Shown: piece after piece, positions 20,472 to 28,615 of the stretch
Layout: each line of letters begins with the position of its first letter
How positions within the stretch are numbered: position 1 is the first letter of the stretch
IMG/VR virus record: IMGVR_UViG_3300020190_000276
Coordinates: 1 to 28,615 of that record
DNA from: a virus
Direction: 5' to 3' (one strand)
DNA length: 28,615 nt
The notes under the pieces: model-generated
The model's input: only the letters and a program-made list of their open reading frames with translations
Databases searched by the model: none
What the model was told of the DNA's origin: nothing
Translations under genes and position numbers: made by a program

Positions 20472-21551
20472 ATGCACCCCCGCACGGTCCAAGAGACATT
20501 GAACCAACTGAAACCGATGCAGACTTGTCAAGAATTGCCAAGACCTGCATTCATGCCAAACAGCAGTACCGAAAGAGTCGTGCTCGGTGTCGAGTCGATG
20601 AAACGACACATGACCGATGAGGGCTGGCAAATCACTAACGGTTTGGCATGTCAAGGTTACAGACACTGCGGATACAACCTTGATTATCCGCAAACGAATG
20701 TCTGCAAGATCATTGAGCACACAAACCCCGGTATCGTCGTCGTGCAGGACATTCGCGAGTGGGATGTTCAGCCGGGGAACTTCAGAGAGTCAGAAGCCCG
20801 CTTTGAGAACATTACGGCTCTACAAGACCACAACAGTCTAAACGTCACTATTCTGAAAGATGCTCACCAAAATCCTCTGTACCACCGTCAGGCTGCGATT
20901 GACATGGCTTGTCACGCATGGATCGTGTACTACCATCCGAGGATTGTGAAATGTCTTGCACCTTACGTTCGAGAGCAAGATTTAATTCGGACTTACCACA
21001 GTCTAAATCCAGACGATATTCCATTATGGAACAATCAGCGAGAGGGGGTAGGAATGTCTGGAGCAATGTCCTCAGTCTATCCTCTTAGACAGCGCATACG
21101 ACAGTTTCAAGCAAAACTGAACATGACATGGCTCACTCACCCAGGATATCACCGTAAAGGCTGCTGTACGCCAGAGTACCTGCAATTTTTATCACGATTT
21201 AAGGTCGCGGTTTGTACCAGCAGTCGCTACGGGTACGCTCTCAGAAAAATTATTGAGGCTACTGCTGTAGGCTGTCGAGTTATTACGGATCTACCAGTCG
21301 ATGACGTACTGCCAGAGATTGACAGTAATCTGATTCGTGTTCACCCAGACATCAATATAAAATCACTGCAATGTGTTCTCGAAGAAGCAACAGCAAATTA
21401 CGATTACGAACGTCAATATGATTTTGCATGTAAAGCTACAGTAAGGTACAACTACAATACTGTGACTTCTTATCTAGCTGATGCTCTTGAAGCTAAAAGG
21501 ATGGAATACGATGAACGAGCAAGAATGCTTAGAACAAATGGTTGCCCCTAA
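20472..21551 (+). CDS. GT-B type glycosyltransferase (CgeB/family 1-like)
   Basis: The 359-residue protein has two Rossmann-like halves. The N-terminal half contains NPGIVVVQDIREWDV and MACHAWIVYYHPRIVKCLAPYV, in the style of the acceptor half of CgeB-like proteins. The C-terminal half has RFKVAVCTSSRYGYALRKII and EATAVGCRVITDLPVDDVLPE, where E262 in the K-x-x-E-x-x-x-x-G-x-x-x-I pattern is the usual donor-binding glutamate region. The end of the protein is a helical tail. It would transfer a sugar from a nucleotide-sugar donor. The last 41 bases overlap the radical SAM gene in a different frame, indicating translational coupling. Exact donor and acceptor cannot be inferred. Confidence 0.83.
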   Translation: MHPRTVQETLNQLKPMQTCQELPRPAFMPNSSTERVVLGVESMKRHMTDEGWQITNGLACQGYRHCGYNLDYPQTNVCKIIEHTNPGIVVVQDIREWDVQPGNFRESEARFENITALQDHNSLNVTILKDAHQNPLYHRQAAIDMACHAWIVYYHPRIVKCLAPYVREQDLIRTYHSLNPDDIPLWNNQREGVGMSGAMSSVYPLRQRIRQFQAKLNMTWLTHPGYHRKGCCTPEYLQFLSRFKVAVCTSSRYGYALRKIIEATAVGCRVITDLPVDDVLPEIDSNLIRVHPDINIKSLQCVLEEATANYDYERQYDFACKATVRYNYNTVTSYLADALEAKRMEYDERARMLRTNGCP

Positions 21552-22443
21552 CCAGAGACGACCGGGAAAGTTTCGTGAAGGTGTCATGCAGATCCACCTG
21601 ACAAGAGCCTGCGACCTCGCTTGCAGTAACTGTACTCAAGGAAGTCAGTTTCGTGGCAAGTCCACATTCATATCACTAGAGAACTTCGAGATTGCCCTGA
21701 AGTCAATGAAAGGCTACTGGGGATTGATCGGGATCTTTGGAGGCAATCCTGCATTACACCCGCAATTCGATGACATCTGTTCCATCCTCAAAAACTATTT
21801 CCCGAAGCAGCAGTGTGGTATCTGGTGTAATAATCCTCGCGGTAAAGGCGGCATCATGCGGGAGACATTCAACCCGCACATGAGCAACCTGAACTGTCAC
21901 TTGAACCAGACAGCTTACGATGAGTTCAAGGCATCATGGCCGGAGTCAAAGCCGTTTGGCAATCAGACAGACAGCCGACACTCCCCGGTTCACGGTTCAA
22001 TGATCGATCTCGATATCCCCGAGGAACGTCGATGGGAATTGATTAGCCAGTGCGACATCAATCAACATTGGTCTGCAATGATCTGTGAGTTCCGTGGTCA
22101 GGTGCGTGGGTTCTTCTGTGAGATTGCAGGCAGTCAAGCTATCCTCAATCAGCACAATCCAGAGTACCCAGACACCGGCATTCCAATTGTAGCAGATGAA
22201 GGTTCAGGCATCGCATGGTGGCAGAAGTCGATGACAGAGTTTGCTCCACAGGTTCGTCAACACTGCCACAACTGTTTAGTGCCCCTTAAAGGCCACGGCT
22301 CTCACGCCCAGCACGACAATGTGACTCATGTGACCCAACAGTATAGTCACTCAAACCTGAAAAATGGACTGTTGCAAATTTTGAGTACGGAAGAGGAAGT
22401 TCATTCAACCGACCGACCTGTCATTAAGTATTTAGGAACTTGA
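21511..22443 (+). CDS. Radical SAM enzyme with SPASM/twitch-like C-terminal cysteines
   Basis: The preferred start is ATG 21511, preceded by AAAGGATGG at 21497-21504; an in-frame ATG at 21481 lies further inside the GT-B gene. The 310-residue protein has the [4Fe-4S]/SAM motif C34-x3-C38-x2-C41 (RACDLACSNC) and the following GGxP element as FGGNPALHP (77-80 GGNP, with Asn instead of the usual Glu). Four further cysteines, C192 and C203 in ICEFRGQVRGFFCEIAG and C252/C255 in QHCHNCLVPL, look like a SPASM or twitch-type auxiliary cluster site. SPASM/twitch enzymes commonly act on peptides or sugars. With sugar transferases on both sides, sugar epimerisation, dehydration or peptide modification is plausible. 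The next gene follows after one base. Confidence 0.88.
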   Translation: MNEQECLEQMVAPNQRRPGKFREGVMQIHLTRACDLACSNCTQGSQFRGKSTFISLENFEIALKSMKGYWGLIGIFGGNPALHPQFDDICSILKNYFPKQQCGIWCNNPRGKGGIMRETFNPHMSNLNCHLNQTAYDEFKASWPESKPFGNQTDSRHSPVHGSMIDLDIPEERRWELISQCDINQHWSAMICEFRGQVRGFFCEIAGSQAILNQHNPEYPDTGIPIVADEGSGIAWWQKSMTEFAPQVRQHCHNCLVPLKGHGSHAQHDNVTHVTQQYSHSNLKNGLLQILSTEEEVHSTDRPVIKYLGT

Positions 22444-22444
22444 C

Positions 22445-23227
22445 ATGACTCCGTTAAAAGCGTTTATCGTGTGCGTAGAGTATGCTGATTTCCTTTCCAG
22501 AACTTTGCCTATCAACAAACATCACTTCTCTGAGATCCACGTTATTACAACTCGCAAAGACCGACCAACGCACACCGTCTGCAGTAAAAACAAAGTAAAC
22601 TGTCACCATACTAAAGCGTTCTACCTAAACGGAGCGTATTTCAACAAATACCTTGCACTAGAAGAGACATTCGATGCTGTAGGTCGTGATGGTTGGATAT
22701 GTATTATGGATGCTGATGTTTGCTGGCCCAACCATATTGACTGGTGCTTCCACCATCCTGACGGTTCGGTATCTCCTAGTACACTCGAACCTAGTATGGC
22801 ACACATGCACCCCGGATATCTATACACTCCACTTCGCCGGATGATGTATGACGTACCTGATCATTTACCACAGGAACCATATTGGAAACAATTTCCACTG
22901 CACAAACAACAAGTTGAGTGGGCGGGTTACACTCAGATATTCCACGGTTCGGACAAGCACCTTAGTACAGCACCGTGGCATCAGACAAACTGGAAACATG
23001 CGGGTGGAGGCGACTCGTTCTTCCAGCAAAAATGGTCTACCGCAGAAAAGCTGCGACCACCATTTGAGGTACTACATCTCGGACACGATGGTCGAAACTG
23101 GTGCGGACGAGTTACTATGACTCTAACCGGAGAAACTAATCCACATGCAGGTATTCGAGAAGAAGCTCTGAGAGATATGTTGGCAGCCCGTCATCGCACA
23201 AAATCTTACGAATCGGAGAAATTCTGA
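22445..23227 (+). CDS. GT-A glycosyltransferase
   Basis: This 260-residue protein starts one base after the radical SAM stop. The N-terminus begins with an immediate strand, LKAFIVCVEYADFLSRTLPINK, and then HFSEIHVITT, the nucleotide-binding start of many GT-A enzymes. The acidic metal site is ICIMDADVCWP (D89-x-D91), a clear DxD. The C-terminal part has KHAGGGDSFFQQKW, in which G-x-D and the following aromatic residues occupy the position of the catalytic-base and acceptor-site loop, followed by EVLHLGHDGRNWCGR, the H-L-G-H tail seen in this enzyme type. It probably works in series with the preceding enzymes. It is the last gene of the cassette; an inverted repeat containing a promoter follows at 23249-23308. 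Confidence 0.87.
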   Translation: MTPLKAFIVCVEYADFLSRTLPINKHHFSEIHVITTRKDRPTHTVCSKNKVNCHHTKAFYLNGAYFNKYLALEETFDAVGRDGWICIMDADVCWPNHIDWCFHHPDGSVSPSTLEPSMAHMHPGYLYTPLRRMMYDVPDHLPQEPYWKQFPLHKQQVEWAGYTQIFHGSDKHLSTAPWHQTNWKHAGGGDSFFQQKWSTAEKLRPPFEVLHLGHDGRNWCGRVTMTLTGETNPHAGIREEALRDMLAARHRTKSYESEKF

Positions 23228-23248
23228 AACAAATTGAAAGATTTTAGT

Positions 23249-23276
23249 TTGACATGACGATCCTGCTTGCTAGACT
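23249..23276 (+). promoter_or_regulatory. Sigma-70 type promoter for the ParB-like gene
   Basis: TTGACA at 23249-23254 is a perfect -35 element. After a 16-base spacer comes TAGACT at 23271-23276, preceded by TGC (23268-23270), an extended -10. It is in a non-coding gap ahead of the gene starting at 23336, and is the best promoter match I found in the window. Confidence 0.7.
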
Positions 23277-23308
23277 GCCTTCCGTGAGGCAACTAGCCGC
23301 AGGATCGT
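23257..23308 (+). repeat. Long imperfect inverted repeat overlapping the promoter
   Basis: ACGATCCTGC (23257-23266) pairs exactly with GCAGGATCGT (23299-23308). Inside are GCTAG/CTAGC (23269-23273 and 23293-23297) and TGCCT/AGGCA (23277-23281 and 23287-23291), giving about 20 base pairs. TTTCATTACTTT follows. It may be a terminator for transcripts arriving from upstream, or a repressor operator that includes the -10 element. Confidence 0.7.
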
Positions 23309-23335
23309 TTCATTACTTTAGTGGAGTTCACCCCC

Positions 23336-24553
23336 ATGTCGTTTGAGAATTTGTTGAAGAAGTGCTCAAAGCCAAAGTCAGAAATTGTGAGTCGTGTAGC
23401 TTGCGTGACTAAAGCATTTGCTGCTGGCGTAGTCGCTGATCACAACAGCCGCAACCGGCCATACAGCAAAGGTCTTGCTGGCATTTATGCTAACGAATTT
23501 TTGCGAGGTAAATGGAAACTAAACGGCGAACCGTTGATCTTCGACAATAAGGGTCAATGTGTCAGTGGACAACATCGCCTGCACGGTTTTTTGATGGCTC
23601 ATCAGGCTCTTGAATCCGGTCAAAGCTGGCCAGATGCTCAGTCTGAATTTGATTGTGTTATCGTCTCAGGTGTCGATCCAGAAACCGCTGACAGTGTGGA
23701 CACTGGTAAAGGCCGTAACCACGGTGATGTGTTATTCCGCAGTCCAATTGTTGACAGAATAATTAGTGCAGATTGGAATACGTCTGCAGCACGCCGCAAA
23801 AAGTGGACCACCTGCCTTGCAACCGCTGCACGTTTAGTATGGTTGCTTGAAGGTGGGCAGACTGTCAGCGATGCAGTGAAGTTTTTGCACAGCGAAATGC
23901 TGGCATTTATTGAGCGTCACCAGAACCTTGCAAAGTTCGTCACAATCATTTTGGACGCAGACGAAAACGATGGGGGCTACGGTGGTCTCAAAATTAGTCT
24001 AGCTTATATGGCTGCTCTGGGCTACGCATGGGCCATTGACACTGTTGAGCCTCTTGAGTCAGAAATTGTCGACATTGACTCAGACCTGACTCATAGTTTC
24101 ATTGTATTCGCAGAAAAACTGGCAAGCGGTAAAGACTTCACTAAAGGTAGTGTTTGTCACGCAGTCAGTGGTTATTGGAACACGCTGTTTTCAGAAAAGG
24201 GCAGCAAAGACCGCGACCGCGAGATTATGGGTCCATTTATTAAAGCCCTGAACTTGTTGACCCCGACCTACCACGGCGATTCGGACAAGGGTAAAAAGCC
24301 CTCTGACATCAAGTTGTCTGCAAAAGAACGCGATAATTGGAGCCTATGCCCTATCGGTTTAGATGGCTGGCATACAATGTGTTTGGAAAACATTGCACGA
24401 ATTAAGGCTAATGTTGCGATAGCGAAGGAAACTCAGCCAGAGCCAGAACCTGCACCTGTCCGTCCTGCGAAGAAACGGCCAGTCAAAAAGCGTGCAGCCA
24501 TTGCTTTGCCTGACGATGACGGCGGGTTTGATGCAGACGGCGAAGACCTTTGA
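23336..24553 (+). CDS. ParB/Srx-like domain phage protein
   Basis: ATG 23336 with GGAG at 23323-23326 is the preferred start; an in-frame GTG at 23321 sits on the ribosome binding site. The protein has 405 residues. The first ~130 contain a ParB/sulfiredoxin-like core: NRPYSKGLAGIYANEFLRGK, then NGEPLIFDNKGQCVSGQHRL with G78-Q79-H80-R81, then VIVSGVDPETADSVDTGKGR, the D-x-G-x-x-R element typical of this phage protein group. ParB-like domains bind CTP or act as nucleases in different families. Which applies here cannot be told. Residues ~140-350 are helical with no named domain, and the last ~50 form a disordered tail with alternating Glu/Pro and Lys/Arg (EPEPAPVRPAKKRPVKKR) and an acidic end. 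Such genes often lie in early or replication modules. It is driven by its own promoter. Confidence 0.82.
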   Translation: MSFENLLKKCSKPKSEIVSRVACVTKAFAAGVVADHNSRNRPYSKGLAGIYANEFLRGKWKLNGEPLIFDNKGQCVSGQHRLHGFLMAHQALESGQSWPDAQSEFDCVIVSGVDPETADSVDTGKGRNHGDVLFRSPIVDRIISADWNTSAARRKKWTTCLATAARLVWLLEGGQTVSDAVKFLHSEMLAFIERHQNLAKFVTIILDADENDGGYGGLKISLAYMAALGYAWAIDTVEPLESEIVDIDSDLTHSFIVFAEKLASGKDFTKGSVCHAVSGYWNTLFSEKGSKDRDREIMGPFIKALNLLTPTYHGDSDKGKKPSDIKLSAKERDNWSLCPIGLDGWHTMCLENIARIKANVAIAKETQPEPEPAPVRPAKKRPVKKRAAIALPDDDGGFDADGEDL

Positions 24554-24559
24554 TCTGCA

Positions 24560-24633
24560 GATGACGTGGGAACGCTGTAGGAGCCTCCAATACTCCTGCC
24601 CTACGGTCCCCGGTTCGACTCCGGGGGTCATCC
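24560..24633 (+). tRNA. tRNA-like element, degenerate or highly divergent
   Basis: The 3' half is convincing: T-stem and loop CCCGG TTCGACT CCGGG at 24609-24625, followed by GGTCATC (24626-24632), which pairs with GATGACG at 24560-24566 in six of seven positions. Total length (74 bases) suits a tRNA, and no CCA is encoded. The middle does not fold normally. An anticodon loop CTCCAAT (24585-24591, anticodon CCA, tryptophan) can be drawn, but its stem has one mismatch, the D-arm would be only ~11 bases and the variable region ~12. A competing 7-pair hairpin, GTAGGAG/CTCCTGC (24577-24583 and 24593-24599), is more stable. It could be a decayed phage tRNA, a tRNA mimic or an attachment-site relic. 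Confidence 0.4.
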
Positions 24634-24640
24634 TTTGTTG

Positions 24641-24732
24641 AAAGCACCAGCAGTCCTGCAATGGTAGGTCTCTCAGCCGCAGGTTGCTTTACAGTTGTGT
24701 CACAGACGTTACAACGCCACTGTAACACAACT
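24641..24732 (+). ncRNA. Structured non-coding segment with nested and alternative hairpins
   Basis: AAAGCA (24641-24646) pairs with TGCTTT (24685-24690) around an inner CCTGC/GCAGG (24655-24659 and 24679-24683). Directly downstream, two mutually exclusive pairings are possible: TTACAGT/ACTGTAA (24689-24695 and 24719-24725) or AGTTGTGT/ACACAACT (24693-24700 and 24725-24732). With the tRNA-like element this fills much of the 270-base gap 24554-24823. The remainder (24733-24810) shows no clear element. Whether the segment works as RNA or as protein-binding DNA is unknown. Confidence 0.35.
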
Positions 24733-24823
24733 ATCTCCACGGGATAAAAACACGCATGAGAGATGACCGCTGTTAAACTTCATTAAACAAGTCCGTGCCC
24801 GTAATACACAGAAAGGTTTTGTC

Positions 24824-25219
24824 ATGGCAGACGCACCCTGGAAACGATTTGAGCGGTACATTGCAGCAATGTTTTCTTCTCTCAGAAATTCACTGAGCGG
24901 AGGCAACAGTAAACTGACTCGGAGTGATAGCACTCATCCGAAGTTGTTCATCTCCTGTAAGTACACTAGACACAATCACAAGACACTGAGACAACTGCTT
25001 GGCGAAGAACGGGAGAAAGCGAAAGTTGAAAAAAAGACTGCCGTTCTGTTTATCGGGGAGTTTGACGACCGAGCTAACACAATGGTTGTGTTAGCACTTA
25101 AAGACCTGCCTGAATTTTGTAGAATGGTAAAGAATGGCGAAGTTGCAGTCGCTCAAGCAACTGTGGAACCCAGTGATAAACGGCCTAAGCGTAAGCGGGC
25201 TGGAGTTATGGCTCGTTGA
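24824..25219 (+). CDS. Putative PD-(D/E)xK nuclease / resolvase-like protein
   Basis: This is a 131-residue protein with AAAGG at 24812-24816 upstream. The N-terminal WKRFERYIAAMFSSLRNSLS and the strand-loop RSDSTHPKLFISCKYTRHNH resemble small phage Holliday-junction-resolvase-like or restriction-like nucleases, in which a helix with W-x-x-x-E is followed by a glycine loop, D, and (E)-x-K. Here D35 and K46 are visible, but the position normally occupied by the acidic residue before K is S44 (I-S-C-K). The catalytic acid is therefore missing or supplied from elsewhere, and the protein could be an inactive or structural relative. A later strand, TAVLFIGEFDD, fits the core sheet. The C-terminal ~25 residues are basic (KRPKRKR) and may bind DNA. 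It overlaps the next gene by 86 bases. Confidence 0.7.
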   Translation: MADAPWKRFERYIAAMFSSLRNSLSGGNSKLTRSDSTHPKLFISCKYTRHNHKTLRQLLGEEREKAKVEKKTAVLFIGEFDDRANTMVVLALKDLPEFCRMVKNGEVAVAQATVEPSDKRPKRKRAGVMAR

Positions 25220-26102
25220 CAGAGTTGCGTTCGAGTGTTCCTACCTCAGAGATCTTGAAGCGGTGGAACCTTGGAACAAGAACATGCAGTTTGGGACACT
25301 GGTGCAAGCGGGCATTGAAGGGTTCATTAAGACCCGACAAGCCCGAGGTGCTGGTAAGCTGATAGCCAACGAATTTGAGAATCAGATTGCTCTGTACTCC
25401 GAGACAGATGAAATCAGTTTCTGGACGAAGTTGGCAACACAGATGGTCAACACATGGATTAGCCTCTATGCGGAAGACCTCGATACCTACGGTATCAAAC
25501 ACTCAGAACGACATCACGAAATGATGCTGGAACTACCCTCCGGCAGATCGATCAAACTTCACGGTTATGTGGACGGTGAAGGCGATGATGCACTGATGGA
25601 AAACAAGTGTCGAGGGGAATGGGATGAAACAAAACTGGCTGAAGAGATTGATCTCAATCTTCAGGTCAATATGTATTGTCTGTTCCACAAAGCACAACAC
25701 GGGAAACTCCCATCGACAGTCTGGTATCAACACATGCGACGACCAGCAGGTTTCGCATACAGAGGGCCAGCAAAAAGAAGCAAGGAAAGTCATGAGGAAT
25801 TTGCTGGCAGATTATGCGAAGCGATAGATGGTAACAGAGATTATCACTTCTTTCGTTATTTCATCCATCCAGACGAACAACGATTCAACCGTTTTTTGCA
25901 CGCATGTCTTTACCCAATGCTTGAGTGCTTTCTCGACTGGTACGAATATATGTCTCTTCCATCTAAACAAGGAGTCGTCAATAAAACACATTACATGATG
26001 CCCTACGGTTTGTTTAATCCATTCATGGAAGGAACGGCAGAGCGTTACCGTGCTTTCCGCATGTCCGGCAGTACCTTTGGTCTTAGAAAGAAGTCACGAT
26101 GA
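25134..26102 (+). CDS. PD-(D/E)xK nuclease family protein (RecB/Cas4-like exonuclease)
   Basis: The 322-residue reading starts at ATG 25134, inside the preceding gene and with only a poor ribosome binding site. No other ATG, GTG or TTG occurs before the conserved region, and a non-standard CTG near 25200 cannot be excluded. The nuclease core is clear: an N-terminal helix region FECSYLRDLEAVEPW-x5-FGTLVQAGIEGF, then SIKLHGYVDGEGDD with catalytic D147, then MENKCRGEWD with E156-x-K158, followed by a Q-x-x-x-Y-type helix, DLNLQVNMYCLF. These match RecB-type exonuclease motifs. There are no four-cysteine iron-sulfur positions like those of Cas4. Phage enzymes of this type resect DNA ends to feed a single-strand annealing protein. 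The ATGA overlap with the Sak4-like gene supports this partnership. Confidence 0.82.
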   Translation: MAKLQSLKQLWNPVINGLSVSGLELWLVDRVAFECSYLRDLEAVEPWNKNMQFGTLVQAGIEGFIKTRQARGAGKLIANEFENQIALYSETDEISFWTKLATQMVNTWISLYAEDLDTYGIKHSERHHEMMLELPSGRSIKLHGYVDGEGDDALMENKCRGEWDETKLAEEIDLNLQVNMYCLFHKAQHGKLPSTVWYQHMRRPAGFAYRGPAKRSKESHEEFAGRLCEAIDGNRDYHFFRYFIHPDEQRFNRFLHACLYPMLECFLDWYEYMSLPSKQGVVNKTHYMMPYGLFNPFMEGTAERYRAFRMSGSTFGLRKKSR

Positions 26103-27010
26103 GTGTTCGACCTGCACTACGTCCAACAAAGCCAGCGAGTCCCGCTGCACTACCTGCTACGCCACGAATGCGAGCAGGCGATAATCCGTTTGATGACCTG
26201 ATCGATGAGTCCCCAACCCACGGTCGATTCATCCTTCTCTACTCAGAAGCCGGTGAGGGTAAGACAACCCTTGCCGCACAGTTCCCCGCACCAATGTTCA
26301 TTGCGACCAGTGGCGAACAGGGTGTCCACATTCATAAGCAGCGTGCAGCTATTCCTATGTCTGTACCTGTGATTGACCTTGATCCTTTGTTCGACCAGAA
26401 CAATATACCGCGAGGTACTGGACATCCGGGCTGGAAAAAACTGATGTCAGCAATTACTCGTTTCCGTGACAGCAAACATCAGTACAAGACACTGGTGATT
26501 GACAGCACAAGCGGCCTGCAGGATATCTGTTTCCAACACGCCGCATCGGTACTGTTCAACGGCGACATGACCAGCAAAGATTTTAACGACTTTCAGCGAG
26601 GTTACACTAAAGCTGCTGAGGTGTTTTGGTCTGGTATCTTCATGCCGTTGTGTCTGGAGATCGTTGCAAAGGGTCTTAACATCGTGCTGATCAGTCACAG
26701 CACAACTAAGACGGTCGCCAACCCTGTCGGTCCTGATTACGATCAGTACCAGCCGCAGTTGACGAAGGGCATCTTCAATTACACAAAGAAAGATGTCCAC
26801 GCTATTGTGTACCTTGGTCGCACAGTCAGCGTGCTTAATGACGAAAAGACCAAAAAGCGTAAGGCAGTCGGAGACCGTCGATTTATCGGAGTAGCACCGA
26901 ATACCTATTACATTGCAAAGTCATGGTGTGGTGAGTCCGATGAACTGGACTGTGGGACTACTCCTGCAGAAACCTACAAGGTTTTGCAGAACGTCCTCGG
27001 CATCGCCTAA
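26099..27010 (+). CDS. Sak4-like RecA-type ATPase (single-strand annealing/recombination)
   Basis: The 303-residue protein has an N-terminal ~30-residue Pro/Ala-rich tail and then a RecA-fold ATPase core. Walker A is YSEAGEGKTTLA with K55 and T56. A following acidic strand includes FIATSGEQGV, Walker B is KTLVIDST with D135, and the sensor-like strand is LNIVLISHSTTK (about 200-211). This arrangement and length fit the AAA_24 / Sak4 group of phage recombinases, which anneal complementary single strands, often with a phage single-strand-binding protein. The immediately preceding gene encodes a RecB-like nuclease, and the next encodes a possible ssDNA-binding protein, so the functional context agrees. 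It starts in an ATGA overlap. A short A/T-rich gap (27011-27063) separates it from the next gene. Confidence 0.87.
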   Translation: MSVRPALRPTKPASPAALPATPRMRAGDNPFDDLIDESPTHGRFILLYSEAGEGKTTLAAQFPAPMFIATSGEQGVHIHKQRAAIPMSVPVIDLDPLFDQNNIPRGTGHPGWKKLMSAITRFRDSKHQYKTLVIDSTSGLQDICFQHAASVLFNGDMTSKDFNDFQRGYTKAAEVFWSGIFMPLCLEIVAKGLNIVLISHSTTKTVANPVGPDYDQYQPQLTKGIFNYTKKDVHAIVYLGRTVSVLNDEKTKKRKAVGDRRFIGVAPNTYYIAKSWCGESDELDCGTTPAETYKVLQNVLGIA

Positions 27011-27063
27011 TAACATTCATCAATCAACTGTATGTTTAACTTCAAGTTCAGAAAGGTGTTCTA

Positions 27064-27924
27064 ATGGTTGACAATACTCAGAACCTCGGGCTGGCTGCTC
27101 TGCTGAAGCAGAACAAAGCTCTTGCAAAGCACGCCGAGGTCGCGAAGAAAGCTCAGGCTGTCCGGGACTTTGCCGGACCTCCGGGCGAATACGTTGTGAC
27201 GTTTGTTGGTCCGAAAGTCGTGTTGAAAGACGGTGCCCAGTATTTCATCCTGCAGTTCAAGTGTGACGGCAGCCTGCCTCATCAGGCACCTCACAACGGG
27301 GCCAGCATGAACGTGCTGCACAATCTGTCAGGCAATGAACGTCGCACTCCTGAGCAGTGTCTCGAAGACCTGATGCGCGACCTTCAGCGTATGTCCATCG
27401 ACACAGCAGAACTTGAAATCGCTCAGATTGACACGGCTTTGAAAGGCTGCATCAATCAGGCGTTCAAGATGCGTGTTGTTCCGGGCAAAAATGACCCAAA
27501 CAAAAGGTACTTCAACATCCTCGGCATGAACTGGGCGGATGAAGATGCTGCCCCAGAGCCGAGACCGGCCACTGAGCCTGCTTCGGCCAAGGTGACAATT
27601 AAGCGTACCTCCAAAAACGTCGTTAAAGCCGCTCCAGAGCCTTCAGAAGACGAATGGAATGCCGAATTGGACCATCCTACCGGGGAAGACCTCGACAGCG
27701 TTACAGACGATGCTGGAGAGCCTGAGCCAGAGCAGGATACACCTGTTCATGCAGACTACTCCCCGTCTGACTGGGTGGACTACGAAGTCCAGTACCAAGC
27801 CCCAAGGTCTCCCAAGGCTCTGACCTACAAGGTTACAGCCGCTGACGACAAGAAGCAGACTTTGACAATCGAAAGGGCAGGTAACTCTCTGACTGTTCCG
27901 TACCTGTCTGTGACTCTGCCTTGA
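27064..27924 (+). CDS. Probable single-strand DNA-binding partner of the Sak4-like protein
   Basis: This is a 286-residue protein with AAAGG at 27051-27055. The first ~165 residues hold the folded part, with PGEYVVTFVGPKVVLKDGAQ and YFILQFKCDG as candidate OB-fold strands, and FKMRVVPGKNDPNKRYFNIL as a basic strand-loop-strand like those that contact DNA. Residues ~170-240 form a highly acidic, Pro/Glu/Asp-rich linker. The last ~45 (DWVDYEVQYQAPRSPKALTY onward) look like a small additional beta domain. Phage Sak4 genes are often paired with an SSB-like protein, and the position here suggests the same. I do not recognise a diagnostic motif, so the function is inference from fold pattern and context. 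Confidence 0.65.
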   Translation: MVDNTQNLGLAALLKQNKALAKHAEVAKKAQAVRDFAGPPGEYVVTFVGPKVVLKDGAQYFILQFKCDGSLPHQAPHNGASMNVLHNLSGNERRTPEQCLEDLMRDLQRMSIDTAELEIAQIDTALKGCINQAFKMRVVPGKNDPNKRYFNILGMNWADEDAAPEPRPATEPASAKVTIKRTSKNVVKAAPEPSEDEWNAELDHPTGEDLDSVTDDAGEPEPEQDTPVHADYSPSDWVDYEVQYQAPRSPKALTYKVTAADDKKQTLTIERAGNSLTVPYLSVTLP

Positions 27925-27949
27925 TCGTCAGTTAATTCCACCCCCGTCC

Positions 27950-27981
27950 GACAGCCGTGTGGAGCAATCTACACGGCTGTC
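27950..27981 (+). terminator. Perfect 11-bp hairpin, probable terminator
   Basis: GACAGCCGTGT at 27950-27960 and ACACGGCTGTC at 27971-27981 are exact complements with a 10-base loop. TCTTTCT follows, a weak T-tract. It lies 25 bases after the preceding stop and directly before the GGAGA ribosome binding site (27989-27993) of the methyltransferase gene, so it may instead act as a leader hairpin. Confidence 0.6.
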
Positions 27982-28000
27982 TCTTTCTGGAGATATACCC

Positions 28001-28615
28001 ATGTTGAAAATATACAATGCTGATTGCTTAGTGCAGTTGAAGTCCATGCCCGATAACAGTGTTGACTCCTGCGTCTGCGATCCCCCCTACGGAATTTCTT
28101 TCATGGGCCGCAAATGGGACTACGACGTTCCATCGGTTGAAATCTGGCAGCAGGTGCTGCGAGTCCTGAAACCGGGCGGGCATCTGCTGGCATTTGCAGG
28201 GACACGGACACAGCATCGCATGGCCGTGCGGATTGAAGACGCAGGGTTTGAGATTCGCGATTTGATTATGTGGGTGTACGGCTCAGGATTTCCTAAGTCG
28301 CTGGATGTGAGCAAAGCCATTGACAAGGCGGCCGGAGCGGAGCGGGGGGTAGTGGGGCAAAAAGTTCGGGGTGATGTGGAAAAAGCCAAGACAAGCGGCT
28401 CGACGTATGCAAGTGCTATTGCCAACAAAAACAACAAAGCAATTTTTGGATATGGAGTAGAAAATATCACCGCCCCCGCGACCGACGCCGCGAAGCAGTG
28501 GGCCGGCTGGGGCACCGCGCTCAAGCCAGCGTGGGAGCCGATCATCGTCGCCCGCAAGCCGCTGGCCGGCACCGTCGTCGAGAACGTGCTGCGGTACGGG
28601 ACGGGCGGGATCAAC
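28001..28615 (+). CDS. DNA methyltransferase (N4/N6 type), 3'-truncated by the window edge
   Basis: ATG 28001 follows GGAGA at 27989-27993. The frame is open to the end of the window (205 codons), so the C-terminus is missing. The catalytic motif IV is DPPY at residues 27-30 (CVCDPPYGISFMG), followed at the right distance by VLRVLKPGGHLLAFAGTRT, where LKPGG is a typical motif of these enzymes. Later, WGTALKPAWEPIIVARKPL is like the KPxxW/P-x-x-x-x region of phage DNA modification methylases. The order, with DPPY near the N-terminus, suggests the beta-class layout in which the SAM-binding motif lies towards the C-terminus. It would methylate adenine or cytosine to protect or regulate phage DNA. 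The last ~145 bases are about 74% GC, well above the rest of the window. Confidence 0.85.
   Translation, partial: MLKIYNADCLVQLKSMPDNSVDSCVCDPPYGISFMGRKWDYDVPSVEIWQQVLRVLKPGGHLLAFAGTRTQHRMAVRIEDAGFEIRDLIMWVYGSGFPKSLDVSKAIDKAAGAERGVVGQKVRGDVEKAKTSGSTYASAIANKNNKAIFGYGVENITAPATDAAKQWAGWGTALKPAWEPIIVARKPLAGTVVENVLRYGTGGIN

Follow-up and report, generated by a model that had tools for sequence, protein, structure and literature searches.

An abrupt GC step at the end of a phage contig is probably a recombination seam in a mosaic DNA methyltransferase gene

Does a sudden rise in GC content within the last gene of a phage contig record recombination, or a join between two genomes made during assembly? 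The question is raised by IMG/VR record IMGVR_UViG_3300020190_000276, which was analysed as a whole and is called the window here; it comprises 28615 bases, and the record stops where the window does. Genes for a large terminase, a portal protein, a Clp-type protease and a capsid were recognised in the window and identify a tailed phage as its source. An Rfam scan of the window and seven loci returned nothing at gathering scores. By eye, a frame at 21481-22443 with a CxxxCxxC stretch is reminiscent of radical SAM enzymes.

The composition step was confirmed as real. A sequence-only reading of the window had described a GC content of about 74% from about 28471 to the window end, A/T-rich bases at 28431-28470 and an overall GC content in the 40s, and measurement agrees on all three counts, giving 0.745 for 28471-28615, 0.300 for 28431-28470 and 0.471 for the whole window; when the final 300 bases are set aside, no 145-base stretch exceeds 0.614. 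Within the final 700 bases, maximum likelihood placed the best change point after position 28469 with a 2lnLR of 26.1, and none of 78 other stretches of the same length in the window, which overlap one another, exceeded 13.7. The start of 28320 proposed for the feature is too early, as the break lies at about 28463-28470, at codon 155, where the right edge of a variable segment (segment 1, see below) meets a conserved block. The last 51 codons have GC values of 0.63/0.57/0.96 at the three codon positions, versus 0.57/0.40/0.63 over 28001-28342, so the rise is mainly one of third positions. The frame that starts at 28001 does run on through the step, as had been stated, and stays open to the window end.

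The product had also been said to resemble methyltransferases, and the window fragment indeed matches PF01555 with 35.1 bits (cut-off 26.7). The fragment contains DPPY and is truncated ahead of the SAM motif, but its full-length relative L002 (395 residues; PF01555 over residues 21-383, 112.7 bits) has the complete order, with DPPY at residues 27-30 and the SAM-binding DPFMGSGSTG at residues 350-359. A profile of 102 relatives found CcrM as the top match among solved structures (E 1.1e-30), and an AlphaFold2 model of L002 (mean pLDDT 78.5, with low confidence in segments 2 and 3) matched M.BceJIV and CcrM in Foldseek (best E 1.6e-15), with a VIA Z of 24.6 to both 9c3u_A (227 residues, 3.8 A) and 6pbd_B (216 residues, 2.5 A). 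The model shares its fold and motif order with these two beta-class N6-adenine methyltransferases; a difference is that some 170 residues of the model lie beyond the aligned core. Taken together, the PF01555 match, the position of DPPY ahead of the SAM motif and the modelled fold assign the predicted product of the window gene to the beta-class N6/N4 DNA methyltransferases of permuted order, with DPPY early and the SAM motif late. In beta-class enzymes, the target-recognition region lies between DPPY and the SAM motif. The alignment of relatives contains three variable segments in this interval (L002 residues 120-155, 214-246, and 269-300), separated by conserved blocks, and from this position the segments are predicted to set the methylation target.

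Table 1. Features of the window discussed in the text, with positions counted from its first base.
Feature	Positions	Strand	Remarks
Sak4-like single-strand annealing protein	26099..27010	+	phrog_124, E 1.2e-24; PF13479 AAA_24
DNA methyltransferase gene, first 205 codons	28001..28615	+	open frame; PF01555, phrog_67, phrog_6025; truncated at contig end
Block A, codons 1-36 with DPPY	28001..28108	+	identical in L002, and to 28107 in L004
Block B	28109..28351	+	49/243 positions differ from L002; 88.2% to L004
Block C1, variable segment 1 (about 28358-28465)	28352..28462	+	identical in L002; L004 not matching
Block C2, GC-rich start of conserved block	28463..28503	+	identical in L002; step at left edge
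Block D, GC-rich	28504..28615	+	28/112 positions differ from L002; 92.9% to L034

L002 lies on contig 3300020220_002002 (locus L082 is the same contig), a near-clone of the window. The two differ at 24 positions across 21099-27949 and at 78 across 27950-28615, the latter interval containing the methyltransferase gene, and the differences fall in sharp blocks. Within the gene, identical blocks alternate with blocks at 75-80% identity (Table 1), and it is the conserved blocks, not segment 1, that differ in this pair. The step itself lies inside 28352-28503, a stretch of 152 bases that is letter-for-letter identical in L002, where block C1 has a GC content of 0.44; L002 then spans the rest of the methyltransferase gene and enters a frame beginning MLVIDTETTGLHLRAGWSTV. 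Thus, the step is no assembly join peculiar to the window contig at that point, and the sequence-only reading's alternative of a join there is not supported. A third phage, L004, is 88.6% identical to the window over the aligned stretch, and identical to it over 27965-28107 and 28466-28515, while the intervening segment 1 is without a match. Outside the methyltransferase gene, two further clusters of differences from L082 were observed, of 13 positions at 25367-25442 and 6 positions at 27207-27223, and these are small exchange tracts. In the sister phage L084, MLVIDTETTGLHLRAGWSTV also opens a 691-residue frame behind the same place, and a different gene occupies the methyltransferase position, which makes this a cargo site. 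The gene found there (L084:6900-7697) has, by eye, a PEP-CTERM-like end.

The nearest relative changes from block to block in the window, L002 and L004 alike. For the window it is L004 in block B and L034 in the last 112 bases; for the last block of L002 it is L152 (90.2%); and for L004 it is L152 in block B (89.1%) and L170 in the GC-rich block (90.7%). These block-specific relatives, the mosaic blocks versus the near-clone and the reassortment of segments described below bear out the proposal of recombination within the gene. The accompanying proposal of a high-GC source was half right. L034, the nearest relative of 28504-28615, is a 65-kb contig of another phage with a background GC of about 0.5, in which the matching DNA forms an island in mid-contig (GC 0.755, GC3 1.0) with about 50% GC on either side, and the immediate relative is thus itself a GC-rich tract in a phage contig of about 50% GC; an ultimate high-GC origin is nevertheless suggested by the GC3 values of 0.96-1.0. 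Across 162 locus rows, in which some contigs occur twice, a background of 0.47 predicts a block GC of 0.586 (residual SD 0.051), and the window has 0.72 over 28464-28615. The two isolate phages compared at this block showed a mild GC rise (BUCT618) and none (MooMoo). Phage records that match the window's tail number 254, and 226 of these are from Mycobacterium.

The relatives, drawn from the best 80 of 439 and the best 80 of 580 matches, carry evidence that the segments themselves are exchanged, all of it from metagenome assemblies. The sets used for segment sharing, in which identical genes were merged, include loci fetched by a 20-base motif (see below) and some contigs twice. Segment 2 could be bounded in 234 of 243 gene rows, 161 of them unique, and among these 161 segments there are 29 pairs of similar length whose segment 2 DNA is 80% or more alike; for 20 of these pairs, similarity lies below 75% over the next 150 bases, a stretch that extends into segment 3. 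In the pair L241/L217, whose background GC is 0.68 versus 0.45, segment 2 is 99% identical and sits in a 201-base tract at 95%, and the shared tracts extend 26-63 bases into the flanks; the remaining aligned pieces of the gene, 26-197 bases long, are 72-92% alike, and L217 has large inserts. Within L217, GC is 0.66 in segment 2 versus 0.44 in the gene head. In 89 genes for which both segments could be delimited, sharing was called at 60% protein identity; segment 1 was common to 18 pairs, segment 2 to 20 and both to 6. Segments 1 and 2 therefore reassort, with thin support for segment 1 at the DNA level, where 9 pairs among 114 unique segments are at least 80% alike and L024/L275 is the only pair clearly discordant with both flanks.

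Synonymous sites point to the DNA beside the segments as the place of exchange. In 62 genes, a set that excludes those fetched by the 20-base motif, conservation beyond the codon usage of the phage concerned was 0.239 nats/codon within 12 codons of a variable segment and 0.058 nats/codon at more than 50 codons, and none of 218 circular shifts gave as strong a fall with distance; as the sequences are related, these figures are descriptive strengths and not probabilities. Synonymous identity between low- and high-GC phages was 0.496 near the segments (expected 0.343) and 0.382 far from them (expected 0.338). The strongest sites were AGG for Arg210 (37/62, 6.9 expected) and GGG for Gly208 (47/55, 12.3 expected). 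An earlier test on 37 genes had the same peaks, and a test on 102 genes was biased because some genes had been retrieved via the 20-base motif; the Spearman correlation of z with distance weakens from -0.42 in the 102 genes to -0.29 in the 62 genes, and still stands. The motif, GATGGGTGCAGGGTGGGGAC, was found in 92 viral stretches and once in genome contigs, on a Bacteroidetes MAG scaffold. Its candidacy as a free-standing DNA signal was dropped, as 77 of the 80 viral stretches examined fit a context pattern and the remaining three, in which 10-25 bases precede the motif, share its reading frame and code for a similar kind of protein downstream.

Direct support exists for the mosaic structure, for the reassortment between segments 1 and 2, and for the raised synonymous conservation close to the variable segments. 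We consider it likely that the step marks a seam left by recombination in a mosaic phage methyltransferase gene, whose segments and blocks phages exchange by recombination anchored in conserved blocks. The main alternative is that the assembler passed through a shared stretch into the methyltransferase of another phage, the contig ending there. The contig terminus falls within a conserved block, 112 bases past the last base identical to L002 and directly 5' of a stretch common to many phages, and it therefore fits an assembly break; block D differs from the near-clone (Table 1), and the last 33 bases of the window are without an exact match in viral contigs. However, the step sits within the 152-base stretch that L002 shares without a difference, and L002 runs on through the gene into the next one; L004 and L002 are also mosaics, and L034 carries its island within a 65-kb contig. 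A switch of this kind is thus an unlikely account of the locus and would apply at most to the last 112 bases, after 28503, which could derive from a co-assembled phage.

Two other explanations seem far less plausible. If the conserved domain demanded GC-rich codons here, no exchange would be needed, and the block of the relatives does average 0.08 above background (162 locus rows, repeats included). Yet with a GC3 of 0.96 the amino acids do not force GC-richness, relatives from GC-poor phages that are 71-88% alike in protein have a GC3 of 0.10-0.57, the window exceeds the GC expected from its background by far more than the residual SD, and the mismatch blocks versus the near-clone are left unexplained, so that we regard this account as very improbable. 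An equally low probability is given to homing endonucleases, whereby HNH genes or inteins in the gene would cut empty alleles and repair would copy flanking DNA, although they might act in addition to recombination in conserved blocks. HNH_3 frames do occur, in a different reading frame, within the methyltransferase genes of L003, L099 and L163 (two), three of the four exceeding the Pfam cut-off, and intein-like inserts before SGFPKSL were recognised by eye in L163, L173 and L217, a pattern search for inteins in the 243 gene rows giving none. Against this, the sequence motif applied revealed such a frame in only 3 of the 243 gene rows, a set that includes loci fetched by the 20-base motif and some contigs twice, with identical genes left unmerged, and none was found in the gene of L002. 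The methyltransferase frame remains open across the nested HNH_3 frames of L163, L099 and L003; per 20000 synonymous redraws, 3861 stayed open for L003, 1146 for L099, and 15 and 8 for L163, in a test that is biased by the choice of genes with an open frame only and is given no weight here. No title among the literature matches listed fits nested HNH frames in methyltransferase genes.

Under the favoured reading of a recombination seam, recombination anchored in conserved blocks would move variable segments, and also blocks, between phages, possibly with help from annealing proteins, of which the Sak4-like protein, encoded about 1 kb upstream of the methyltransferase gene, is an example. Annealing proteins of the Sak4 type are described as recombining short or diverged sequences (PMC8093625, PMC5499656). 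Cassettes with their flanks would thereby pass between phages that differ in base composition, and such a transfer would leave behind a GC-rich tract in a genome of 47% GC; the benefit may be new target recognition and escape from host restriction.

Similar exchange has been described in bacteria, where target recognition domains (TRDs) move within Type I S genes (DoMo; PMC3077401) and where the TRDs of Type III mod genes pass from one non-orthologous gene to another at sites where the DNA for conserved methyltransferase motifs is weakly similar (PMC3983042). As in these accounts of variable recognition segments exchanged via recombination in conserved flanks (PMC3077401, PMC3983042), the segments found here lie between conserved blocks and reassort, and exchange occurs at flanking conserved DNA, as seen in the synonymous peaks and in the L241/L217 tracts that reach into the flanks. 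Unlike the bacterial restriction-modification cases, the genes here encode stand-alone phage methyltransferases with three variable segments, whose role in specificity is predicted. The domain mosaicism described for phage proteins in PMC10684548 likewise involves recombination that shuffles protein fragments among phages; neither "methyltransferase" nor "methylase" occurs in the main text of that paper. Among the literature matches listed, bacterial TRD movement was represented, and no title concerned shuffled segments in phage methyltransferases.

It is conceivable, though we hold it doubtful, that a common pool of cassettes serves phages whose hosts are unrelated, and that the DNA beside the cassettes, and not the protein alone, is kept similar across base compositions as a selected recombination anchor, as in GGG for Gly208 and AGG for Arg210; if so, one short exchange could re-tool the DNA marks of a phage. 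The conserved blocks of this gene may also cause breaks or false joins in assembled phage genomes. An abrupt change of composition where a contig ends is easily written off as an artefact of assembly; the present one marks a hot spot of exchange in many environmental phages, and allele pairs such as L217/L241 make the idea that cassettes set the methylation motif testable. If they do, this gene would be a readable record of phages changing their DNA marks to pass host restriction.
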